A stretch of DNA of 64,000 nucleotides, taken from Aurantiochytrium sp. KH105 (lineage: Eukaryota; Sar; Bigyra; Thraustochytrida; Thraustochytriidae). Position numbers and translations under genes: made by a program. The notes beneath the pieces were generated by a model that worked only from the letters and a program-made list of their open reading frames with translations, was not told the DNA's origin and made no database searches. The number at the start of each line of letters is the position of its first letter. Position 1 is the first letter of the stretch. The DNA is taken from NCBI GenBank assembly GCA_003116975.1, contig BGKB01000163.1, positions 1 through 64,000 of the forward strand, in the 5' to 3' direction. Of this stretch, positions 28,183 to 40,839 are shown in pieces.

Positions 28183-29964
28183 ATGTACACCCGCGTGGGG
28201 CCGACGCCCCCGCGGCGCCGCTCGCGCGCGCTCGCGTGGGCAGCGGGCGCCGGCGCCGCGGTGGTCTTTCTGTGCGTCGTAGTCGCCAGGAACGGACGCG
28301 GCCATGAGGAGACCGTGACCGTCAGCCCCGCGGAAGCGGACATCGTCGGGATCGGCGCGACCCTGGACATGGAGATGGCAATGCCCAGCAATACCAGCGA
28401 CGCCGCGCTCATGGACGCCGTCGCGACTGATTTCTACGACGGCGTCGAGGCCTACGGGGCCGGGGACGAAGACCACAACCACACCCTCTCGAGCCGCAAC
28501 AACAGCCTCTGCGCCGGGTGGTGCGCCAACCAGTACCTGCCGCTCGTGGAATGCACCCAGCATGGCCTTCCGCGACTGCGTGCGGCCTTTCAGATCGAAA
28601 ACTGCGCCGCCGCGCTCCAAGGCGGTAAAAACCTCGAGGCGGTCAACTCCAAGATCGAAAAGATCGCGGACAACACCGCCTTCGTCTTTTTCCGCGGCGC
28701 CGCCGCTTTCTTCGATTACAACATGATGTGCTCCGACCCGCAATTCGCGGCGAAGCGACTCACCATGCCCCGTGTGTACTCGAACGGAGACTGCCACCCA
28801 GAGAACTTTGGGGTCATGGTCCAGGCCAACGGCGATCTCGTCTGGGGCGTCAACGACTTTGACCAGTCCTTCACAACGCCCTTTAGCTGGGACGTCAAGC
28901 GCGGCGCCACAGGCTTTGCGCTTGGGTCCGTAGCTCGAGCCTGGGCAGACGAGGACCACTCGAACGCCGCGCGCGCCTTTGTCGAGGCCTATGTATCCAC
29001 TCTTGTCGACCACCCGAACTGCGAGTTTGCAAACACGGAGCGCTTTATTGAGCATGGCCGCTACGTCGAGGGCCACGCTTCCCTTATCAAAGACCTCTTC
29101 AAAAAGTCACGCGACCGTGAATCGAAAAAGGAGACACTTCATTTCCTCGAAGACAAAATGTCCATCGACCTCAAAAATGACCGCTTCATCAAGACCGACA
29201 AAATCCATCCCGTCAACGAGAGCCTCATCCCCGAGTTTCAGGAGTCTGTCGACGCCTATTTGTACCACGGTGTCGCGGCGCTGGCCAAGTTTCCCAACGA
29301 CGGTAAGTTCTACAAGGTCGTCGCCGTCGCGCGCAAGGAAGGCAGCGGCACGGGCTCGATTGGTCTCAACCGATTCTATCTGCTCATCAAGGGCCGCTAC
29401 GAGTCGCAAAAGCATGGCTACATTATCCTCGAAATGAAGGAGGAGGTCAACTCCGTCCTTCAAGTGTTCTTTCGCTACTCTTATACCGCCTCGCAAGAGG
29501 GAAAGCGCGCCGTGGACGCTGAGCGCTCCGCGTGGCCCTACACGAACCTGTTTTATGGCTGGACTACCTTTCGCGACAAGTCGTACATTATTCGCGAAAA
29601 GTCCAAGCACAATGTCGATGTCAATCTCGAGAAGCTCAGCAAGGACGAGTACATTCAATACTCTTCGCACGGCGGTCGCGCCCTCGCTCTCTACCACATT
29701 CGTGCGCGCTGTAACAACCACGAGTGCGAGCCGCACGCTCAGTCGGCCGTTGACAAGGAGATTTGTTCTCAGATCCAGACGTATTTGCACAAGAACGTTG
29801 GCGTGCAAAACTTCACGAACCAGGTCCATCAATTTGCCATTGAGGAGACCAACCGCGAGATCAAAGCGTGGAAGCTTTTGCGCAGCTTCGTCAACCCGCG
29901 TCGTGACACGAAGACGTCCTACAAGCTCCTCAACGGAGGCGAAAGGCCGCACAGCTGCTCGTAA
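28183..29964 (+). CDS. Membrane-anchored DUF2252-family protein
   Basis: A 593-residue protein with a short basic N-terminus and one hydrophobic helix (about residues 16-36, ALAWAAGAGAAVVFLCVVVA), a type II anchor or signal sequence. Residues ~130-560 match DUF2252: AFVFFRGAAAFFDYN, NGDCHPENFGVMVQANGDLV, then WGVNDFDQSFTTPFSWDVKR. These correspond to the family's FLRGAA, GD.H.ENFG and NDFD...WD.KR motifs, which resemble the catalytic HxxN and DFD elements of aminoglycoside-phosphotransferase-like kinases. Several NxS/T sites and Cys residues (CAGWCANQ) suggest a lumenal or extracellular fold. The family's biochemical function is not established. Bacterial members are soluble, so the anchor is unusual. 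Confidence 0.85.
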   Translation: MYTRVGPTPPRRRSRALAWAAGAGAAVVFLCVVVARNGRGHEETVTVSPAEADIVGIGATLDMEMAMPSNTSDAALMDAVATDFYDGVEAYGAGDEDHNHTLSSRNNSLCAGWCANQYLPLVECTQHGLPRLRAAFQIENCAAALQGGKNLEAVNSKIEKIADNTAFVFFRGAAAFFDYNMMCSDPQFAAKRLTMPRVYSNGDCHPENFGVMVQANGDLVWGVNDFDQSFTTPFSWDVKRGATGFALGSVARAWADEDHSNAARAFVEAYVSTLVDHPNCEFANTERFIEHGRYVEGHASLIKDLFKKSRDRESKKETLHFLEDKMSIDLKNDRFIKTDKIHPVNESLIPEFQESVDAYLYHGVAALAKFPNDGKFYKVVAVARKEGSGTGSIGLNRFYLLIKGRYESQKHGYIILEMKEEVNSVLQVFFRYSYTASQEGKRAVDAERSAWPYTNLFYGWTTFRDKSYIIREKSKHNVDVNLEKLSKDEYIQYSSHGGRALALYHIRARCNNHECEPHAQSAVDKEICSQIQTYLHKNVGVQNFTNQVHQFAIEETNREIKAWKLLRSFVNPRRDTKTSYKLLNGGERPHSCS

Positions 29965-30710: not shown

Positions 30711-33700
30711 ATGGTGAGACGGAACCGCAAACTCGTGCTGCGCGGCAGACAGCCAGTGCCGGCGCACGGTCGCGACATCTATGCGGCGAAAGACGGCCCT
30801 GGAGGCTCCAGAACGCCCAGCCGCGAGGCGCTCTGGCAGCAGGTGGCAAAATGCAGCAACGCGTCCGCCGCGCGCAGACTCGTGGAGGCTCTCTTGCACG
30901 CCGACCATTTGCTTGGTCGCGTGGCCAAACTATCGAGCGCAAAGGGCGCCGTGAAAACCGGAAAATGGTGCGCACTTGCCGCGCATTCCGAGACCCCATG
31001 TAGTTGCCAACGCCAGGGCGAAGCCATGCATTGCGAAGACCATGCCGCTCTAATCAGCATATGCACTCATATCCTTGGTGCCCCGGTTCCGCTCAAGCTG
31101 CGCCAGGCGGCGTCTGCTGTACTCCAAGCTTGTCTCGACAAGCACCCGAGCCTCGAGACCGTGCTCGCTGCGCGCATCGAGGCTCGTGTCGCAGAGCTCT
31201 GCGCACGAGCCTCGCGTGTTGTGGACAAGATTGACGTCGCACTTGGTATCCGCAACTTTGTGCTATCCAGCGCTTGCCGCGACATCCTCGTCGATCGTGT
31301 CGATCCAGGTCTCCTTTTGCGCACGCTTCGACTGCTTCAGCGCGACCTCAATATACCGGCACTAGCTGCCGGCCCAGACACTGCACTCGACGCGTCTGTG
31401 GCTCTAGCAAACGCCGAAGTTCCAGTACAAGCGCTCATGGAGTACCTTCAGGCGCCAGGAGCCTGTACTCGTATTGCCTCGACGGGACCTGCAGACCGCG
31501 AGGAAGCCCGTGGCATGGCACAAGAGTCTCTCTTTCCCTGGGTCAATGCCGCTGCTGATTCTGACGTTGCAGCAGCAACAAAGAGCATCGAAATGTTTGC
31601 GGGCATTTCCATTGTTCGTCTCGATCTCACCTTTTGTGCCCCGGATGAGGTCCGTCGCGCCATTGTTAAGCTGTGCGAGGTCCAATCGGGCTCTCAGGTC
31701 GGCGGCAAGTCTACAGACACTGTCACTGGTGCTGGCGCTAGCGCTGGCGCTGGCGCTAGCGCTGGCGCTGGGACTGGTGCTGGTGCTGGTGCTGGTGCTG
31801 ATACCGCGTGCAGCGCTCCGAATGTCGCGGCGTCATCCGCTGCCAGTGTCCACAGCTCATCCATGCCCTCGTCTGTCGCGGCTCCAGCCGCAAGCGACTC
31901 TCTCGATGACAAAGCCAGTGAAAATAGCGATCCGCGTGCGCTCGTGGCCCTACTTGCTGCATCGTGCACCGAACCTGCCGCTGCTCTGCTGCTTCGCAAC
32001 CTTCTTGCATGCGTACCGCGATCTCTCTTGCTTGCAGCGGATACAAACACAAACGAGACTGCTCAGGACAATGTCGAAACGGTATCCGAGCGCATATTTG
32101 CCAAGCTCATGGCCATCTCAGAAGCACACGTTTTTAATGCTACGGTGCAGGGGTACTGTCTCACGGGCCTTGAAGCATGGTGCAAGCTTTTCAAGCAAGG
32201 ACTCCATCTCTTGGAAATGCCGGCCCTATTGCTCTGGCGGAGCCATGGCAAAAAGTGCTGCCTTGCGCTTCTCGACTTTGTCCTGGACAATTGGAGTCAA
32301 GGATCTCGCAAAGCGCGCTATTACCTCGAGCCGCTCTTCAATGCCTCTCTCGAGGTTCTCGAGGCAGTCGCCTTCGCAGATCCAGCGTCTATTCCTCAAC
32401 CTTTTGTAGCCGAGCGCGACCACGCTCTCGCAGCGCGAGGGACGCTTCTCCGTCGTCTCTTGCAAGAAGTCACTTTGCACGAGCCAGGATCACAGACCAC
32501 CAACCTCCGGGCCGCGCTCTTGGCTGTTGGGCGCTTTCTCGAGCACGACGGTGCGCGCGGCTTATTGGATGTGGATCCAAACATTATGCCAGCGCTATTG
32601 CGCTGCTTCGAGGAGCACGGGCAGGTCTTCACCGTGAGCACCAAGCTATTTCGAGACATGGCAAGCAATCTCGAGGAGCGTGAGGGTCTTGATGCACGAC
32701 CCATCTGGCTCGAACCGCTTCTGGATGCCATCACAAAGGGCGATACGAGCGCCGCGGAGCAGGTCGCGACTCGAATCGTACCCGAGCTGCTCAGTTCCGT
32801 CAGCGGCATTACCTGTCTTACGCTCCAAGAGGCGCTGGAGAAGCGCAAGCCGGCGCTGGAGGACCAGCTTCGGCTCTGGGGCGCACTCTCAAGCGCGGGG
32901 CTTCGCGTCGAATTTGCTGCCTTCGACGACAACAGCTCGAGTGGCAAATCGCCCCGGTCACCGCGCTCGCCCATGTCAAGGTCACCTGCTCTCGCTTCGA
33001 CAAAGGTTGTGCGTATCCCTTCCGAAGCTGTGCGGCACGGACTCGAGCACGCCGATGACCTGGTCCAATTGCGAGCTGTCAAGCTTGTACTTTGTCCCAC
33101 CAAAAAACAGCGCATGCCAAGCGCCGAGGTCCTCCGCCTTGCAAGGGTTGTCTATAGCTGCACTGTGCACAAGTCGGTCTCGGAGAGCTGCGCGCAGGGG
33201 TTGCGCCGCAGCTCGCAACTGTTTTTCGAATGGATCAGCATCGCTCTTGTTCAAAGCAGACGTGCCGACGACGAGCATGTGACCGATAAGGATCGCGCCG
33301 CCGTCCTTGACTTTCTCAAATGGTTCAAGCGCACCATGATCGAGCAAATTTATCCCGACATGCCGCGCGAGCGATCGAGCATGGTGCTTTCGCATTTGTC
33401 CATCATGTTTGAAGTCTTTTCGACCTCGCCCGATATCTGTCGCCTCGAACATCAGGATCACACCTTTTCCCTTCTCAGTCTCGTGCGCGACGTGCACGAG
33501 CAGCCGCGGACGCTTGCTCTGCAAGTGCTTCGACGCGTCCCTGCACCTCTTCCTGGACTCGACACGTGGACTGCAGTGCACAAGCTCGTCAAGTGGGCGC
33601 TCTTGCTCGCCAAGAGTCTCAAGGTTCGCAATGCTCGAGGAGGGAGCACCCTCTTGCAGCTTGTTTACGAGCGTTATGTCCTCGGCGAGGGCTGGGCCGT

Positions 33701-36700
33701 GGGTCTGCGTGGCGAGCCAACGTCGCGTGAGGATCCTGGCATCCAGGCGCGCATGGACGTTGCTCGGATGCACTTGTCCTGCGCCGAGGCGTTCAAGTGT
33801 GAGCGTGCCGAGAAGGCGTACAACGTTGGGTCCATTATCGTTCGCGAGGCGGACGTGGATATTTTGGCGCGCGGTTTTAGCCGCGAGCTTCCGGGCAACA
33901 CGCACGCAGAAGAAACGGCATTCATGAAGATTGGCGGCTTTGACGAAAAGGACGAGGACGTGGATGATATTGCTCGGGGCGGAGCCAAAGGTACGACAAT
34001 CTACACGACCATGGAGCCTTGTAGCAAGCGTCTGTCCGGCAATCGCCCTTGCACCTCGCGCTGCATCGCTGCTGGCGTCAAGCGCGTCGTGGTTGGCGTG
34101 CGCGAGCCGTCAAAATTTGTAGAGTGCACAGGAACGCGCGAGCTGCGCGAGGCCGGACTCCAGGTTGACTACCTCACGGGCACTGACCAGCGGCTCAAGG
34201 AGCGCTGCATGGAACCAAATATGTTTTTGTTCCCTGACGAGGGTCCTGTGGAACCCTTTCAAGAGCAAGCGAGCGACAACTTTGAAGCAGAAGCAGTGGG
34301 CCAGAATCTCCCGCGGGACCTTGTGGCACGCGCCTTCTTGGCCGACCTCATCAAGCTGTATCGCGAGCCTGGGGCCGAGTCGTGCTTTGGCCTCCTTCAA
34401 GCCTTTCGCAACTGCTGGGAGGTGAGCGAGTCCACGCTTCGCCGTGATCCGGATGCCTGGGTGCAAGTGGCTGAGGATTCACTCAACGTACTCAACAAGG
34501 CGTGTGAACTCGCTGCCGCTGTCGTGTGCAAGAAGCAGACAGACGCAGATGATGGCAGCGACTTGGACGATGAGGACGAGGACATGGAACAGCTCTCCGA
34601 CGACGACGACGGTGCCGTCGATGCAGACAACAGCGGCGATAACACCACTACTATGAATGCAGCCAGCAAGGAAGGCGGGTCGTCGAGCAGGAGAGGTGAC
34701 GACAACCTCATTCTCATGGATCGACCTATTCACAACAACGAAAACGTGGTTGTCAGCGACTGGCTGGTCATTCGCGAGGTGACAATGTGTATGGAGACGA
34801 TTGTGCGCACCTGTCCACTTGAGTTGGAGACGGACGCCTTTGTGCTCGCTGCCCCTCGGGTTGCAGCAATTGGCGTCGTGCAGCTGCAGCTGCTGATTCG
34901 CTTGCGACACATGGGCGCAATTCGCGTGGTCGGCAATTCTTTTCAAGGCATTGCAGCGCGCTTGCTTCGCCTGCGCAAAAGCCCGGCGTTGTCCAAGCTT
35001 CCAATGCAGTGGACCAACTATTTGCTGCATCGACTCGAGGGCGGGCTTCAAGGTTTTTACTTGAGGCGGTCCGTCGGGTTTGCAAGCGCGTTTTTGGCTC
35101 TTGCGTGCGCCGAGCCTCGCGCGGGACGCACCGTGCTGCTGGAACGCATGGTGACCCGTCTCATGCTGCTGGCAAGCAATGCTGAGGATATGCGCATTCG
35201 CGTGCACGGGCTGAATATCTTGAAGATGCTTTTCGAGGACGGCTCGCTGCAGCACGAGCTGCAAGAATACCTTCCGCAGCTCTTGCTGCTGTCGTTGCGT
35301 GGCTTTAGAAATGACAATTGGCAAGTGCGAAACTCGTCCATGATGGTGTTTGCCCGTGTGATCCAGCGAGCCTTTGGCCAGGAGAACATGCGCGTGAGCC
35401 GCACGATGGGGGCCGTGCTCGTGAACTCTGCTTTTTTCATGCAGCGTTATGGGGATGTCTTTTTGGCGGTGCTCGAGAATCTCCGACGCATCGTCAACGA
35501 GCAGCGTCTTGGGCACAACAAAATGGGCGCGATGGATCCCAGTCTGTACCCCATGCTCTTGATTCTGTCCCGATTGCGACCAGCCTTTGTGTCTCCCGAA
35601 GGGGAGGAAGAGGCCTTTGTCGGAGAGCACAAGGAGGCGTGGGAGGCGGGAAATAAGGACGTCCTTCCCTTTTTACCGCTCCTCCTTGCGTGCGCTTCTC
35701 AACCGCACGTGATGGCGCGCTCGATGGCCTCGCGAGCGCTGGCCAGTCTTTGTCCGGAATTCCGACTTCTCGACACAATTCGAGAGATTCTTGCCATGCT
35801 GAGCGATAGCTGTGCCTCGTCGCCGCCACGTCTTGGCCACAATCACGCGCATGGCCTCTTATTACAACTTACCCAGTTGTTGGTGACAATTCGTGAACGT
35901 AAGCTGCACACGGGTCCGCGCGCAAGCGAGGCGATTGGAGCCCTTGAGACGCCTCTGAGCAATGCGCTGCGCGCCGTCCTGGAATCGTGCGGGCCCTCTT
36001 CGATGGTGTACACGGCCACCTGGGACGCCCTTTGGAACTTTTCATTGCTACGACCGCGCGCGGCGCTCTCTGCGCCGATCTTGGATCTCGCCAAGCGGGC
36101 CGGAGACAGTCCCTGGCAGACGGAGGACAGTGTTGCGCTTTCGTGCCGGCTGTTGGCGTCGAACTTTTTAGTGGAGAATCTGCGCAGCGAGGACTGCCGC
36201 AGGCGTCTTGCGGCGCTGCGGGCTGCCAAAGACGTAGCGACGGGGTCTTCACCTTTGGCGCAAGAGGTCCTCGAAGCAGCTGAGCATGTGACCTTGACTG
36301 AAGCGGGCGTATTCTTCTACCCAGAACTAATTGCACGAATGGACTTGCTAGCCTCCAGCGAGAGTCAGCGATCGCCCGCAGTTGCCCAGCGGCTTTTGAC
36401 CATGTTTCACTCGCAAGTATGCGTTGGCGAGGGCGCCCAGGGCGCAGTGGTGCGCGCCTTGGGCCGGTACGCTGCCTCGCAAAGAGAGGTTCAGGTTGCC
36501 CTTGCGGCGATCATCCATGACTGCGCCAAGCCTGTGCAAAGCACGCTTCTGCGCAGCGCTGCTCTCGAGGCGCTCGGGACGTCTGGCGTTTTGGAGGTCT
36601 CGAATCCGTCGCTTGCGTTCGCGTGGCGGGCCCTGCTCGCACTTGCGCAGGACGAAGTGGACAATCTCCGGCGCGGGGCGCTCGCCATGGCGGGGCGCCA

Positions 36701-37238
36701 GGTCCCTTCGCTGCGTGCGCTCCCACAGTGCGAGCCTCTCGTGGTGCGGGCCTTGCTGCGGCACATGTTTGAGACGTTGGACGGGTCGGCTTGGGTCGAA
36801 GTACGCGCCGCTGCGTGGGCGCAATGTGGCGAGTTGCACCCTGGCCCCCGCGCGCTGGCGGCAAGTCCGCGCGACCTCGGGCTCCTCAAGGAACGCGTCT
36901 TTATGGTGGAGCCGGACAACATCTACGCCGAGCCTCTGAATCTTTTGCGAGATGTGATGGAGGCGCAGCAACACACTCATGATGCCGTTGTACAAGAGGC
37001 CGGAGTCCAGGAAGTGCTCGACTTTACTGCTCTCGAGCGTCTTGTGCGCGAGACGGCGTGGCCAGGCGGCGTTTCCTTCCACCACGATGCCTTTGCGCAC
37101 CTGTGTCGGGCGGCGCTGGCGGGCTCTCGTGAGTGCAAGGCGCGTTTGCTTCGAACGCTTGATCCAGAGGGCGTCGCGCCCTTGCATCCGGCTCTCCGAA
37201 GGCTTCTCGCCGTCGCGCGAAAGCGTGCTCTTGAATAA
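30711..37238 (+). CDS. THADA/Trm732-type HEAT-repeat protein with internal RIB2/RibD-like deaminase domain
   Basis: A 2,175-residue single-exon protein; ATG 30711 is the first in frame (MVRRNRKLVL). The N-terminal half is helical-repeat sequence with THADA-like blocks (CLALLDFVLDNWSQGSRKAR; LDFLKWFKRTMIEQIYPDMP). A Gly/Ala low-complexity insert sits near 340-365. Residues ~1018-1175 form a cytidine-deaminase-fold domain: GFSRELPGNTHAEETAF (His1065, Glu1067) and TTMEPCSKRLSGNRPCTSRC (Cys1104, Cys1114), the RIB2/DRAP-deaminase pattern with all zinc ligands and the catalytic Glu. After it the THADA/DUF2428 region resumes (~1330-1660): LRHMGAIRVVGNSFQGIAAR, LRRSVGFASAFLALACAEPR and NWQVRNSSMMVFARVIQRAF. 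Yeast Trm732 partners Trm7 for 2'-O-methylation of tRNA position 32. Confidence 0.88.
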   Translation: MVRRNRKLVLRGRQPVPAHGRDIYAAKDGPGGSRTPSREALWQQVAKCSNASAARRLVEALLHADHLLGRVAKLSSAKGAVKTGKWCALAAHSETPCSCQRQGEAMHCEDHAALISICTHILGAPVPLKLRQAASAVLQACLDKHPSLETVLAARIEARVAELCARASRVVDKIDVALGIRNFVLSSACRDILVDRVDPGLLLRTLRLLQRDLNIPALAAGPDTALDASVALANAEVPVQALMEYLQAPGACTRIASTGPADREEARGMAQESLFPWVNAAADSDVAAATKSIEMFAGISIVRLDLTFCAPDEVRRAIVKLCEVQSGSQVGGKSTDTVTGAGASAGAGASAGAGTGAGAGAGADTACSAPNVAASSAASVHSSSMPSSVAAPAASDSLDDKASENSDPRALVALLAASCTEPAAALLLRNLLACVPRSLLLAADTNTNETAQDNVETVSERIFAKLMAISEAHVFNATVQGYCLTGLEAWCKLFKQGLHLLEMPALLLWRSHGKKCCLALLDFVLDNWSQGSRKARYYLEPLFNASLEVLEAVAFADPASIPQPFVAERDHALAARGTLLRRLLQEVTLHEPGSQTTNLRAALLAVGRFLEHDGARGLLDVDPNIMPALLRCFEEHGQVFTVSTKLFRDMASNLEEREGLDARPIWLEPLLDAITKGDTSAAEQVATRIVPELLSSVSGITCLTLQEALEKRKPALEDQLRLWGALSSAGLRVEFAAFDDNSSSGKSPRSPRSPMSRSPALASTKVVRIPSEAVRHGLEHADDLVQLRAVKLVLCPTKKQRMPSAEVLRLARVVYSCTVHKSVSESCAQGLRRSSQLFFEWISIALVQSRRADDEHVTDKDRAAVLDFLKWFKRTMIEQIYPDMPRERSSMVLSHLSIMFEVFSTSPDICRLEHQDHTFSLLSLVRDVHEQPRTLALQVLRRVPAPLPGLDTWTAVHKLVKWALLLAKSLKVRNARGGSTLLQLVYERYVLGEGWAVGLRGEPTSREDPGIQARMDVARMHLSCAEAFKCERAEKAYNVGSIIVREADVDILARGFSRELPGNTHAEETAFMKIGGFDEKDEDVDDIARGGAKGTTIYTTMEPCSKRLSGNRPCTSRCIAAGVKRVVVGVREPSKFVECTGTRELREAGLQVDYLTGTDQRLKERCMEPNMFLFPDEGPVEPFQEQASDNFEAEAVGQNLPRDLVARAFLADLIKLYREPGAESCFGLLQAFRNCWEVSESTLRRDPDAWVQVAEDSLNVLNKACELAAAVVCKKQTDADDGSDLDDEDEDMEQLSDDDDGAVDADNSGDNTTTMNAASKEGGSSSRRGDDNLILMDRPIHNNENVVVSDWLVIREVTMCMETIVRTCPLELETDAFVLAAPRVAAIGVVQLQLLIRLRHMGAIRVVGNSFQGIAARLLRLRKSPALSKLPMQWTNYLLHRLEGGLQGFYLRRSVGFASAFLALACAEPRAGRTVLLERMVTRLMLLASNAEDMRIRVHGLNILKMLFEDGSLQHELQEYLPQLLLLSLRGFRNDNWQVRNSSMMVFARVIQRAFGQENMRVSRTMGAVLVNSAFFMQRYGDVFLAVLENLRRIVNEQRLGHNKMGAMDPSLYPMLLILSRLRPAFVSPEGEEEAFVGEHKEAWEAGNKDVLPFLPLLLACASQPHVMARSMASRALASLCPEFRLLDTIREILAMLSDSCASSPPRLGHNHAHGLLLQLTQLLVTIRERKLHTGPRASEAIGALETPLSNALRAVLESCGPSSMVYTATWDALWNFSLLRPRAALSAPILDLAKRAGDSPWQTEDSVALSCRLLASNFLVENLRSEDCRRRLAALRAAKDVATGSSPLAQEVLEAAEHVTLTEAGVFFYPELIARMDLLASSESQRSPAVAQRLLTMFHSQVCVGEGAQGAVVRALGRYAASQREVQVALAAIIHDCAKPVQSTLLRSAALEALGTSGVLEVSNPSLAFAWRALLALAQDEVDNLRRGALAMAGRQVPSLRALPQCEPLVVRALLRHMFETLDGSAWVEVRAAAWAQCGELHPGPRALAASPRDLGLLKERVFMVEPDNIYAEPLNLLRDVMEAQQHTHDAVVQEAGVQEVLDFTALERLVRETAWPGGVSFHHDAFAHLCRAALAGSRECKARLLRTLDPEGVAPLHPALRRLLAVARKRALE
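31725..31802 (+). repeat. In-frame GCTGGC-type repeat (Gly-Ala linker)
   Basis: GCTGGTGCTGGCGCTAGC-like hexanucleotides encode an AGAGASAGAG-type stretch within the THADA-like protein. Confidence 0.85.
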
Positions 37239-37608: not shown

Positions 37609-40600
37609 TTATTCAACCTTCATCTTTTCGATTTTGGCTGTGAGCTTTTTAATCTTTGACTCGAGATTTGCCACGAGGTTTCGAAGCGAAATCTCCTTCT
37701 CCTCCTGGAGCTCAAAGAGGACACCGATTGTGTTCTTGGTGAAAAGGTACCGAAGTAAGAAGATGATGGCAATGGCCCAAACGAACAAAGGGCTCTGCGT
37801 TGCGAGGGTGTATAACGTCTTCAGGTAGTTGCTCAAGTATGTGTCGAGCGAGGAGTAATAGTTCATGTTGTAGACAAAAGGTCCACAACTGAGCGAGCAG
37901 ACAACGAGAGAGGAAAAGCTGACAGTCGTCTGATTTGGGTACCCGAGCAAGGCACGCAGTCGCGCCTCTGTGTCAATGATCGCATCGTCTGCAAAGGTGC
38001 CGTCCGGGACGCTGGCAACAAAGTATTCTTCCCAGAAGCGCAGCTCTTCGAGTCCCGGAGCCCGTGCTTCACCAAGCGCAATTTCAGAGGCCGTACGGTC
38101 GCTCATGAAGCAAGTCGGCTCACTGTCAGCAGCCGTGGGATTTTCGTCAAAGCACTGTTCAAGCGGATCGCTATCAAAAGAAGCCTGTACAAGGTGTTCC
38201 TGAAGCGAACAGGCCTTGGGAAGCGTTTCTGAAGCGAGCATGAACCAAAGTACGGCAAAGCTGAGGACGAAAGTGAGGAAGAAGAACTTGATGAAAAAGT
38301 TGGCGGCGTCGCGTGCGCTCCAAGGTTTCTTTGGTTTCTGCATGAAGCCGTTAAGAACGCGCAGCTGCAGCTTGAAGCCGAGAAACATCATGCCAGCGAT
38401 AAAAATGGTGCCAAAAGGGAAGAATGGAAAGGACATGAAGCAGAGCTGCTGAAAGAAAAGGAGGTCGACCATGTGCTTGGCGACGTGGAACTCGTTGCGC
38501 TCGTAAGGGCGCTTGCGCAGCTTGGCGATGAGGTACTTGGCGGCAGGCACGATCGCAAAGGCGGTCTTGGAGACGACAAATTCCGTAATTACGAGCTGGA
38601 AAATGCCTGCACCGTAAAGGTCGGCCCGGCACTCGTCGAGACCACGTGGCACAGTGCCGGCGGCCCCATAGGTGGATCCGACGGAAACAAGACGTTTTTC
38701 CGTGTTGGTCCGTGCGGTGAGAGAAAAGTCGCGACTAATTATAGGGTCCCCTCGTAGCATGTACGGATCGAGAAGTTGCAGAAAGGAAAAGACCTGAATG
38801 AAGGCGTTGAGGATCTTGGCCACAAAGAGGCGGGAGAGCATGTACTTTGTGTGAAAGCCGCCATCGTCCCACTTTTCAAATGCCGTGACGAAGGTGACAA
38901 CAGCTGGCAGTAAGGCGTTGATGACGCTGACGGCGAGGGGGACAATGGACCCGGATATGAGCGTGACGATGGGGAGCAGCCACTGCAGGGAGGCGTTATC
39001 GCTGATGATTTGCAGGACATTTTGGCTCATTTGCGCTGAAGTTGCGGTCAGGTAGATGATTGCCGCGGCACTGGATCCTTGAACGGAAATATAAATGAAA
39101 TTGGCGGTGATGCGGCGCGCACGAAGCGTGAGACGCTCCTTAAAACTGCGGCTCTTTTTCTTGTTGGCAGTATTGAGTTCGTGCGTGGTGAGAAAGTATT
39201 GGTCAAGAAGCGTGTGTTTGAGATCCTCGACCTCGCGAGGGTCGCTGATGCTATGGTCCCAGGCATTGAGAGCGCTCTGCGCGAAGCGCGACTGACTGTC
39301 GAGGTCCTCAAAGAGGCCAAAGGCCTTGGCGCGGCGATCCTCGCGGATCCACTTGTTGATGGAAGATCCGAGAAGGACAAGATTGCAAAAGATGAGAAGA
39401 CTGATGTAGTCCATGCGTTCGCCAAGTTCCGCACCCGGGTTGTAGGACGTGGCACTCACTTCAGCACCGCTTGCGTCGCGGATGGGCGTTCCGGCATGTA
39501 GATTGTCTGCGAAGAACTGCGTCGCCGAATCCCCTGGATTGAAGCTGGAAATCATGAGGAACTTTGGCAAGAAAGAGGAGAGTGCAGACCAATCGCTCGA
39601 GGACCAATCAAAGGCGAGCCTCGGCTCCCCCGCAGAGTTGTAAAACCGATTGCGGTCGTCCTGGCTTAGGTTCTGGTACCACAAAAGCGCAGTGATATGC
39701 CGAATGAGAAAAATCAGGCAAATGAGCGCAAGAGCAATGTAGTTTGCAATCATCCATCTGAAAAAGTAAAAGTACGAGGCAACAGAACTACCAAATCGCG
39801 CCTCTGCGCGACGCACGTCTCGCTGCAGAGGCGTGTATTTCCGCTGTAGGCGCGCCATGAGCTTGTATACACTGGCAAAAAGACCTCCGGCGCGCCTTGT
39901 GTCTTGCATGCCGAGAATGACATCGTAGTCATCGCCCTGATCGTTTGTCGCGGCGTACATTTGGCGGCGAGCCTCTTCTCGTTTGCGCTGGGCTTCAAGG
40001 TCAGTGGCTAGATGACGACCCGCGGCACCGCCGCCCCCCGCGGCAGCGCCAAGGTTTTTGAACTGTATGAGGCGTAACTCACGCTCGGCGCGCAGTTCGG
40101 CCTCTTCCTTTTCCTCTTCGAGCTTTTCGAGTGCCTCGCGGAGCATTTTGGCGTCTTTGGCGGCCTTGTCGTGCTTTTCGCGCAGCTTGCGATTCTTTTC
40201 TCTATAGACTTTGACGGCTTGAGCGAGCTGCTCGACCTTTTTTTCGATTTCTGGATTCATGAATGCGGAAGGTCCAGCGCCGGGGAGTTGGGCGATGCCG
40301 AGAAGTTCCTCAGCACCATCGTCGATACCGAGTAGGTCAGCTTCCTCATCTTCCTCATCTCCCTCGTCTTCATCCGAAGCTGCAGCGTTTTTAGCATTGC
40401 CGGCGAGAGTACTGGGCAATTGATTATGTTTCATGCTTGCGTTTAGCGCGCTCGCAAATTGTGGTACTTCTTGCGTGTCTGGACGCCGTCTTCCACCACG
40501 ATCACCACGAGCGTCAGAATCATCGTCGTCAAGATCGAGGAAGTCGACTTCGAGAGCACGCTCGGTCGCTGCGTTCGTGGCAAAGAGCTCGATGCCGGCG

Positions 40601-40839
40601 TCGCTGCCCTGGGACGCTTGATCGTCAATAGCAAGGTCTGTCTGGCCCTCTTCAAAACCTCGATCTTGCCTTGGTGTTCCGCCCGTGCCGTAGTATCCGC
40701 CACCTGTTCCCGGCGCGTCGAGACCGGCTAAAGTTGTCCACGCCGTTGTGTTTGCATTTGCATTATCCTCGTCGGCGTCGAGGGAGAGCTCGCTCTCAAG
40801 CGCGCCGGGCTCGGGATGAACCCTCCTTTTGCCTGGCAT
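37609..40839 (-). CDS. Transmembrane channel-like (TMC) protein
   Basis: A 1,076-residue polytopic membrane protein. The N-terminal ~330 residues are cytosolic: acidic and disordered, then a charged coiled coil (about 195-290, KVYREKNRKLREKHDKAAKD). About nine or ten hydrophobic helices follow, beginning SSVASYFYFFRWMIANYIAL, the usual first TMC helix. The region ADLYGAGIFQLVITEFVVSK aligns with the TMC signature (family form CW..xxGQExxxLxxxDF), although the CW is missing. The segment KPWSARDAANFFIKFFFLTF resembles the conserved block before a late helix. The last ~40 residues form another coiled coil (ELQEEKEISLRNLVANLESK). TMC1/2 form mechanotransduction channels in animals; protist members are little studied. 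TMC is preferred over the related anoctamin superfamily because of the first-helix and KPW motifs. Confidence 0.75.
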   Translation of the reverse strand: MPGKRRVHPEPGALESELSLDADEDNANANTTAWTTLAGLDAPGTGGGYYGTGGTPRQDRGFEEGQTDLAIDDQASQGSDAGIELFATNAATERALEVDFLDLDDDDSDARGDRGGRRRPDTQEVPQFASALNASMKHNQLPSTLAGNAKNAAASDEDEGDEEDEEADLLGIDDGAEELLGIAQLPGAGPSAFMNPEIEKKVEQLAQAVKVYREKNRKLREKHDKAAKDAKMLREALEKLEEEKEEAELRAERELRLIQFKNLGAAAGGGGAAGRHLATDLEAQRKREEARRQMYAATNDQGDDYDVILGMQDTRRAGGLFASVYKLMARLQRKYTPLQRDVRRAEARFGSSVASYFYFFRWMIANYIALALICLIFLIRHITALLWYQNLSQDDRNRFYNSAGEPRLAFDWSSSDWSALSSFLPKFLMISSFNPGDSATQFFADNLHAGTPIRDASGAEVSATSYNPGAELGERMDYISLLIFCNLVLLGSSINKWIREDRRAKAFGLFEDLDSQSRFAQSALNAWDHSISDPREVEDLKHTLLDQYFLTTHELNTANKKKSRSFKERLTLRARRITANFIYISVQGSSAAAIIYLTATSAQMSQNVLQIISDNASLQWLLPIVTLISGSIVPLAVSVINALLPAVVTFVTAFEKWDDGGFHTKYMLSRLFVAKILNAFIQVFSFLQLLDPYMLRGDPIISRDFSLTARTNTEKRLVSVGSTYGAAGTVPRGLDECRADLYGAGIFQLVITEFVVSKTAFAIVPAAKYLIAKLRKRPYERNEFHVAKHMVDLLFFQQLCFMSFPFFPFGTIFIAGMMFLGFKLQLRVLNGFMQKPKKPWSARDAANFFIKFFFLTFVLSFAVLWFMLASETLPKACSLQEHLVQASFDSDPLEQCFDENPTAADSEPTCFMSDRTASEIALGEARAPGLEELRFWEEYFVASVPDGTFADDAIIDTEARLRALLGYPNQTTVSFSSLVVCSLSCGPFVYNMNYYSSLDTYLSNYLKTLYTLATQSPLFVWAIAIIFLLRYLFTKNTIGVLFELQEEKEISLRNLVANLESKIKKLTAKIEKMKVE

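Follow-up and report, generated by a model that had tools for sequence, protein, structure and literature searches.

A Rib2-type deaminase domain inside a THADA/Trm732-like open reading frame of Aurantiochytrium sp. KH105: a probable bifunctional protein of riboflavin synthesis and tRNA modification

A single gene of the thraustochytrid Aurantiochytrium sp. KH105 raises the question of why a deaminase of the kind deployed in riboflavin synthesis should lie inside a protein of the THADA/Trm732 type, the partner of a methyltransferase acting on position 32 of transfer RNA (tRNA). The gene lies in a window of 64,000 nucleotides (positions 1 to 64,000 of the forward strand of contig BGKB01000163.1, GenBank assembly GCA_003116975.1), where an uninterrupted frame of 2,175 codons, reported in a first-pass annotation made from the letters alone, was confirmed at 30711-37238 on the plus strand as one open reading frame (ORF) with an ATG start and a terminal stop codon. 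Judged from its domains, this ORF most probably encodes a bifunctional protein that would both catalyse the third step of riboflavin synthesis and support the 2'-O-methylation of tRNA position 32 by Trm7, presumably being expressed as one chain with both halves active. The inserted domain would serve as the Rib2 of the organism, deaminating the reduced pathway precursor DARIPP to ARIPP downstream of a separate Rib7-like reductase, and the remaining chain would act as THADA/Trm732, holding the tRNA and Trm7 for methylation.

Pfam searches conducted with the whole protein placed family PF18785 at residues 1040-1163 (E 3.4e-29) and PF00383 at residues 1019-1129 (E 6.3e-13), and the nearest solved chain to residues 1047-1164 in the PDB proved to be the Rib2 of Aspergillus oryzae (AoRib2; E 1.6e-13). 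When the domain piece was compared on its own with PDB sequences, AoRib2 again led (7drz, E 4.8e-15), RibD following at 1.7e-9 or weaker, and no tRNA deaminase was found among the matches at E values up to 0.001. Identity to AoRib2 amounted to 43 of 118 aligned residues. Neither the RibD_C reductase domain of the bacterial bifunctional RibD layout nor the PF00849 pseudouridine synthase domain of the Rib2-Pus8 layout was matched by Pfam in the ORF. The name carried by PF18785 is Inv-AAD, and an AID/APOBEC-like identity read from that label was considered and rejected, AoRib2 bearing the same label with a higher score (148.8 bits for a 127-residue stretch, vs 107.7 bits for the fusion domain).

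Both zinc motifs of Rib2, HXE and PC-x8-9-C, were present (His1065/Glu1067 and Cys1104/Cys1114), the H-A-E at 1065-1067 and the two cysteines occupying precisely the positions that the first-pass annotation had given them. In the AoRib2 structural report (PMC8256712), 13 residues are named as zinc ligands, catalytic residues or substrate contacts; 12 of these could be aligned, and all were identical apart from Thr53, replaced by Ser1057 (11/12). The DARIPP contacts Asn59, His61, Ala62, Glu63, Glu100, Arg105, Leu106, Ser107 and Glu136 were identical throughout, and the HAE, PC-x9-C and RLSGN motifs and the Glu136 equivalent are accordingly common to the fusion domain and the solved AoRib2 structures (7dry, 7drz, 7ds0 and 7ds1). 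The two differ in setting, AoRib2 being a stand-alone protein of 222 residues and the present deaminase being inserted in a chain of 2,175. Between the two genomic copies of the fusion, the deaminase differed by 11 synonymous changes and one non-synonymous change, and the resultant ratio of non-synonymous to synonymous rates (dN/dS) of 0.026 fits purifying selection.

A structural model of the deaminase (five sequences) adopted a cytidine deaminase (CDA) fold, with a mean predicted local distance difference test score (pLDDT) of 63.9 and a predicted template modelling score (pTM) of 0.65. Two observations weigh against a Rib2 assignment: Phe26 of AoRib2, described as a backbone contact in the same paper, fell outside the alignment, and searches with the model ranked RibD first, AoRib2 appearing only 8th (Foldseek) and 37th (VIA). 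Because RibD outranks AoRib2, the fold alone cannot favour Rib2 over RibD; it is the sequence and the contact residues that do so. A structure prediction of the insert, proposed in the first-pass annotation, thus upheld the CDA fold and left the Rib2 type undecided, and the RIB2-type call itself was sustained by PF18785, by AoRib2 as the closest PDB sequence and by the site residues. Bacterial RibD/RibG, the leading fold match in both searches, is a deaminase of the same pathway with the CDA fold, but has its own reductase fused to it and makes other ribose and phosphate contacts (PMC8256712), whereas in the present genome the reductase is encoded separately. On its sequence and substrate-contact residues, the inserted domain is of the Rib2 type.

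Searches of the host assembly (76,034,492 bases in 367 contigs), in which the families sought occurred mostly as diploid-like pairs of near-identical matches, placed this domain in its metabolic context. The RibD model gave four matches: with its deaminase part it matched both fusion copies, and with its reductase part contigs C135 and C61, the latter corresponding to a separate Rib7-like reductase, a frame of 274 codons holding RibD_C alone, with 4ha7, a DARPP reductase, as its best solved relative. GTP cyclohydrolase II, DHBP synthase, lumazine synthase and riboflavin synthase were all found. The PF00383 family occurred in 17 places, two of them the fusion copies and the other 15 grouped here into seven loci; with one copy taken from each, the best NCBIfam match of all seven was TadA, cytidine deaminase or dCTP/dCMP deaminase, below curated cut-offs, and each of the six scanned showed the cysteine spacing PCxxC, as against PC-x9-C in the fusion. 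No PF18785 match was detected in the genome outside the fusion, the 14 PseudoU_synth_2 places included. Against an exclusive role it must be set that three of the other deaminases weakly matched the RibD model (28.4, 25.6 and 20.3 bits, compared with 61.7 for the fusion). The first-pass annotation had asked whether the genome holds another RIB2/RibD deaminase, and no second clear one was found in the host assembly by an exon-by-exon six-frame search, which an intron-split deaminase, or one missing from a perhaps incomplete assembly, could escape. The fused domain is consequently the only clear candidate found for the riboflavin deaminase step, and a riboflavin role is strongly favoured because, with the other families of the pathway present, no further deaminase of clear RibD/Rib2 type was found.

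Several frames noted during these searches deserve separate record. In a frame of 709 codons at L026:1381-3507 (minus strand, contig C202; second copy on C207), GTP cyclohydrolase II is accompanied by a LOV/PAS photoreceptor-like domain at approximately residues 262-360, which matches phototropin-2 (2z6d, E 8.1e-19) and contains the motif GRKCNFLQG; the first riboflavin enzyme may be fused to a sensor of a type whose ligand is flavin mononucleotide (FMN), the product of the pathway. Among the few papers retrieved by literature searches on this point, no such fusion was encountered, as judged from titles, the openings of abstracts and, for one paper, the relevant passage. A second GTP_cyclohydro2 gene, at L028:1357-3102 (minus strand, contig C83; second copy on C85), is a frame of 582 codons with a GTP_CH_N domain. 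A cytidine-deaminase-like domain was also located (L058, C8:575962-576183) in a frame of 2,561 codons, with 2,538 codons in the copy on C218.

Turning to the remainder of the chain, Pfam matches to DUF2428 (144 bits) and to the Trm732 C-terminal domain (82.5 bits) both exceeded the curated cut-off of 27, the DUF2428 region including an acidic low-complexity stretch at about residues 1274-1316. The nearest solved chain to residues 1345-1732 was human THADA (E 5.8e-31), with 112 of 366 aligned residues identical in 8y2o, and equivalents of human Trp1054, Pro1358, Arg1363, Arg1368 and Cys1393, as numbered in PMC12145424, were retained; the chain offset of 28 applied to 8y2o was set by Trp1054, and the same source numbers the histidine of motif 1 both 1105 and 1106. 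Human THADA and the fusion have DUF2428, the C-terminal TPR domain, motif 3 and a similar insert-free length in common (about 2,017 residues here once the insert is subtracted, vs 1,981 in the 8y2o chain). They differ in that human THADA, as described in PMC12145424, has no deaminase, and the fusion has a weakly conserved N-terminal half and changed contacts. Between the two genomic copies, residues 1255-1723 showed one non-synonymous change vs 10 synonymous changes, dN/dS outside the deaminase was 0.088, and a profile search detected DUF2428 nowhere else in the host assembly. The case for the C-terminal part as THADA/Trm732, made from such sequence matches, is a strong one.

The N-terminal half is less readily placed, and several observations detract from a fully conventional THADA. 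Its TPR_Trm732 match at residues 770-904 reached only 11.9 bits with the whole protein and 13.9 bits with the piece (E 0.15 and 0.038, respectively; cut-off 27), residues 1-680 matched no Pfam family, and a PDB search with residues 1-1017 yielded no THADA chain up to an E value of 10. Human Arg199, Gln680, Thr798 and Tyr843, key N-terminal positions at which mutation nearly abolished activity (PMC12145424), lie outside the THADA alignment. Elsewhere, four human contacts named in that text are changed (Glu1225 to His, Phe1321 to Tyr, Phe1398 to Leu and Gln1400 to His), motifs 1 and 2 are only 4/8 and 4/9 identical, with RH and G, and RRS and G, retained, and the basic residue that follows RH in motif 1 is Met here. 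An AlphaFold model of residues 860-1560 was of low confidence (mean pLDDT 42.7), showed helices in 860-1010 and was left out of the fold search. Since its position and the insert-free length fit, the N-terminal block is read as a diverged THADA N-terminus, and this half is probably a diverged THADA solenoid. The THADA-like helices that the first-pass annotation saw on both sides of the deaminase were therefore substantiated on the C-terminal side by DUF2428 (E 6.6e-42) and TPR_Trm732_C, the possibility it had raised of flanks devoid of any THADA/DUF2428 match being set aside by the former; on the N-terminal side they rest on a sub-threshold match and are weaker than it had stated.

A partner for the THADA part was also sought. 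The genome contains one Trm7/FTSJ1 gene pair, for which human FTSJ1 was the best solved match (E 3.4e-107, one copy searched), and the tail CGDLSGFDSDQSY, identical in both gene copies, was equated with the THADA-binding segment Cys238-Tyr250 described in PMC12145424. According to the same source, human THADA presents the anticodon loop to the active site of FTSJ1. In all, 63 tRNA places were listed in the host assembly; contig C366, perhaps the mitochondrial genome, is rich in such places, which lie without exception on the minus strand and span 1.9 to 26.3 kb.

The integrity of the fusion itself was assessed from its second copy, an ORF of 2,169 residues on contig C25. The two fusion-bearing contigs, of 583,515 and 158,544 bases, are collinear in their flanks and share 96.7% DNA identity across 10,044 aligned positions surrounding the gene. 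An assembly error, one of the outcomes envisaged in the first-pass annotation, is very unlikely because the collinear contig C25 encodes an identical fusion architecture, and an artefact of assembly or of gene reading by which two genes were joined can in practice be discounted. No support for it was found: a C25 stretch with only 84% identity over 3,087 positions lies upstream, outside the gene, and GC content at third codon positions (GC3) at the three junction stretches (0.69, 0.52 and 0.68) falls inside the range of 0.50-0.75 spanned by 100-codon blocks of the frame.

Among the functional alternatives to a bifunctional protein, the inserted deaminase might instead edit tRNA, for example from C to U at position 32 or close to it, the anticodon loop being offered to it by THADA, in which case riboflavin would depend on an unseen deaminase or on scavenging. 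The delivery of that loop to the active site of FTSJ1 by human THADA (PMC12145424) lends this some attraction, as do the C32-to-U editing carried out in trypanosomes by ADAT2/3 and reported in Arabidopsis, enzyme unknown (PMC6382703), and the occurrence of ADAT2/3 and TadA among the fold matches, an outcome to be expected of a CDA-fold domain. Such editing is nevertheless highly improbable. It is disfavoured because the small-molecule contacts of AoRib2 to phosphate (Asn59, His61, Arg105 and Ser107) and to ribitol (Leu106 and Glu136), as assigned in PMC8256712 and needless for a tRNA editor, are kept, and because no other clear pathway deaminase was found though other riboflavin families are present; the closest solved sequence, moreover, is a Rib2 and not a tRNA deaminase. 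Of the two roles that the first-pass annotation had offered for the deaminase, the riboflavin one is hence strongly favoured and C-to-U editing is not. A protein whose THADA half is degenerate, serving now solely as a riboflavin enzyme on a scaffold, would accord with the several differing human contacts, the half-identical motifs 1 and 2 and the barely recognisable N-terminal half, but is quite improbable given the excess of synonymous changes over residues 1255-1723, the persistence of motif 3 together with a matching Trm7 tail, and the lack of another DUF2428 in the assembly.

The pseudouridine synthase of yeast Rib2/Pus8 acts on tRNA position 32. The yeast protein likewise joins a Rib2-type deaminase to a tRNA enzyme, but with a pseudouridine synthase as partner and the deaminase C-terminal (domain order from PMC8256712), whereas the fusion described here combines an internal deaminase with THADA. 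As the partners are unrelated and the layouts different, the two fusions are probably independent. What appears to be new is the joining of THADA, partner of a position-32 methyltransferase, to a Rib2-type deaminase placed internally; the first-pass annotation knew of no described THADA-deaminase fusion, and none was found in the accessible portions of the open-licence PMC literature, where a paper that mentions DUF2428 together with a deaminase does so for an assay reagent. The two fusions suggest that this deaminase and the modifiers of position 32 may be functionally tied, and their pairing could be chance.

As to why the fusion arose, a neutral origin is somewhat favoured, in which a deaminase was captured at a permissive site in THADA, the two halves function independently of each other and the likeness to yeast Rib2-Pus8 is coincidental; this concerns the origin of the protein and is compatible with the bifunctional reading of what it does. 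In moulds, Rib2 consists of the deaminase domain alone, and AoRib2 is a monomer (PMC8256712); because the mould enzyme functions in this single-domain form, the present deaminase should not depend on THADA. The insertion, furthermore, lies at a domain border, with the weakly TPR_Trm732-like part before it and DUF2428 after it. Neutrality sits less comfortably with the joining of one enzyme type to two unrelated position-32 factors in two lineages. That these lineages, with Pus8 in yeast and THADA here, independently tied a riboflavin deaminase to such factors through a functional coupling of flavin synthesis and anticodon-loop modification is a real but rather unlikely prospect; it might take the form, for instance, of flavin-precursor sensing on THADA-Trm7 or of shared control of protein level, with a deaminase that also acts on the anticodon loop as a minor variant.

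Features of the fusion ORF, with residue numbers of the encoded protein and coordinates in the window
Feature	Coordinates	Strand	Evidence or remark
Whole fusion ORF	30711..37238	+	2,175 residues plus stop; counterpart of 2,169 residues on contig C25
N-terminal block, residues 1-1017	30711..33761	+	probably diverged THADA N-terminal solenoid; weak TPR_Trm732 match
TPR_Trm732-like stretch, residues 770-904	33018..33422	+	profile positions 83-221 of 265; sub-threshold, E 0.15/0.038
Rib2-type deaminase domain, residues 1018-1175	33762..34235	+	PF18785 E 5e-31 for piece; AoRib2 4.8e-15; CDA-fold model
H-A-E 1065-1067, zinc His and catalytic Glu	33903..33911	+	aligned with AoRib2 His61/Glu63 (PMC8256712)
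P-C-x9-C 1103-1114, with Arg1107, Leu1108 and Ser1109	34017..34052	+	AoRib2 alignment; phosphate/ribitol contacts in AoRib2
Glu1132, equivalent of AoRib2 Glu136	34104..34106	+	AoRib2 alignment; ribitol contact
DUF2428 (THADA/TRM732), residues 1255-1538	34473..35324	+	PF10350 E 6.6e-42
THADA motif 1, LIRLRHMG	34893..34916	+	4/8 identical to human (8y2o)
THADA motif 2, YLRRSVGFA	35058..35084	+	4/9 identical to human (R, R, S, G)
Trm732 C-terminal TPR repeats (TPR_Trm732_C), residues 1540-1723	35328..35879	+	PF25151 E 3.8e-23
THADA motif 3 (FTSJ1-binding), NHAHGLLL	35841..35864	+	6/8 identical to human
C-terminal block, residues 1724-2175	35880..37235	+	no Pfam match

The gene is preceded in the window by an ORF for a DUF2252 protein (28183-29964, plus strand) and followed, tail to tail, by an ORF on the minus strand (37609-40839) whose product matches TMC and, below the threshold, anoctamin. 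Viral contigs yielded no relative of the whole protein, of the deaminase or of the THADA part. Among bacterial and archaeal contigs, 28 pattern-matching stretches contained three loci, two Actinoplanes deaminases and one Pelagibacteraceae RibD; the Actinoplanes proteins (L021 and L022) have no reductase domain, show the PC-x9-C spacing, share about 40% identity with the insert where the two align and lack the Rib2 motifs GNTHAE and RLSGN.

For the organism itself, these results point to its riboflavin deaminase within a protein that annotation would name solely as a tRNA methylation partner. They would also supply a second, differently built joining of a Rib2-type enzyme to a position-32 factor, by which a link between vitamin B2 and translation becomes directly testable; the pairing hints at, without proving, a connection between vitamin supply and protein synthesis.

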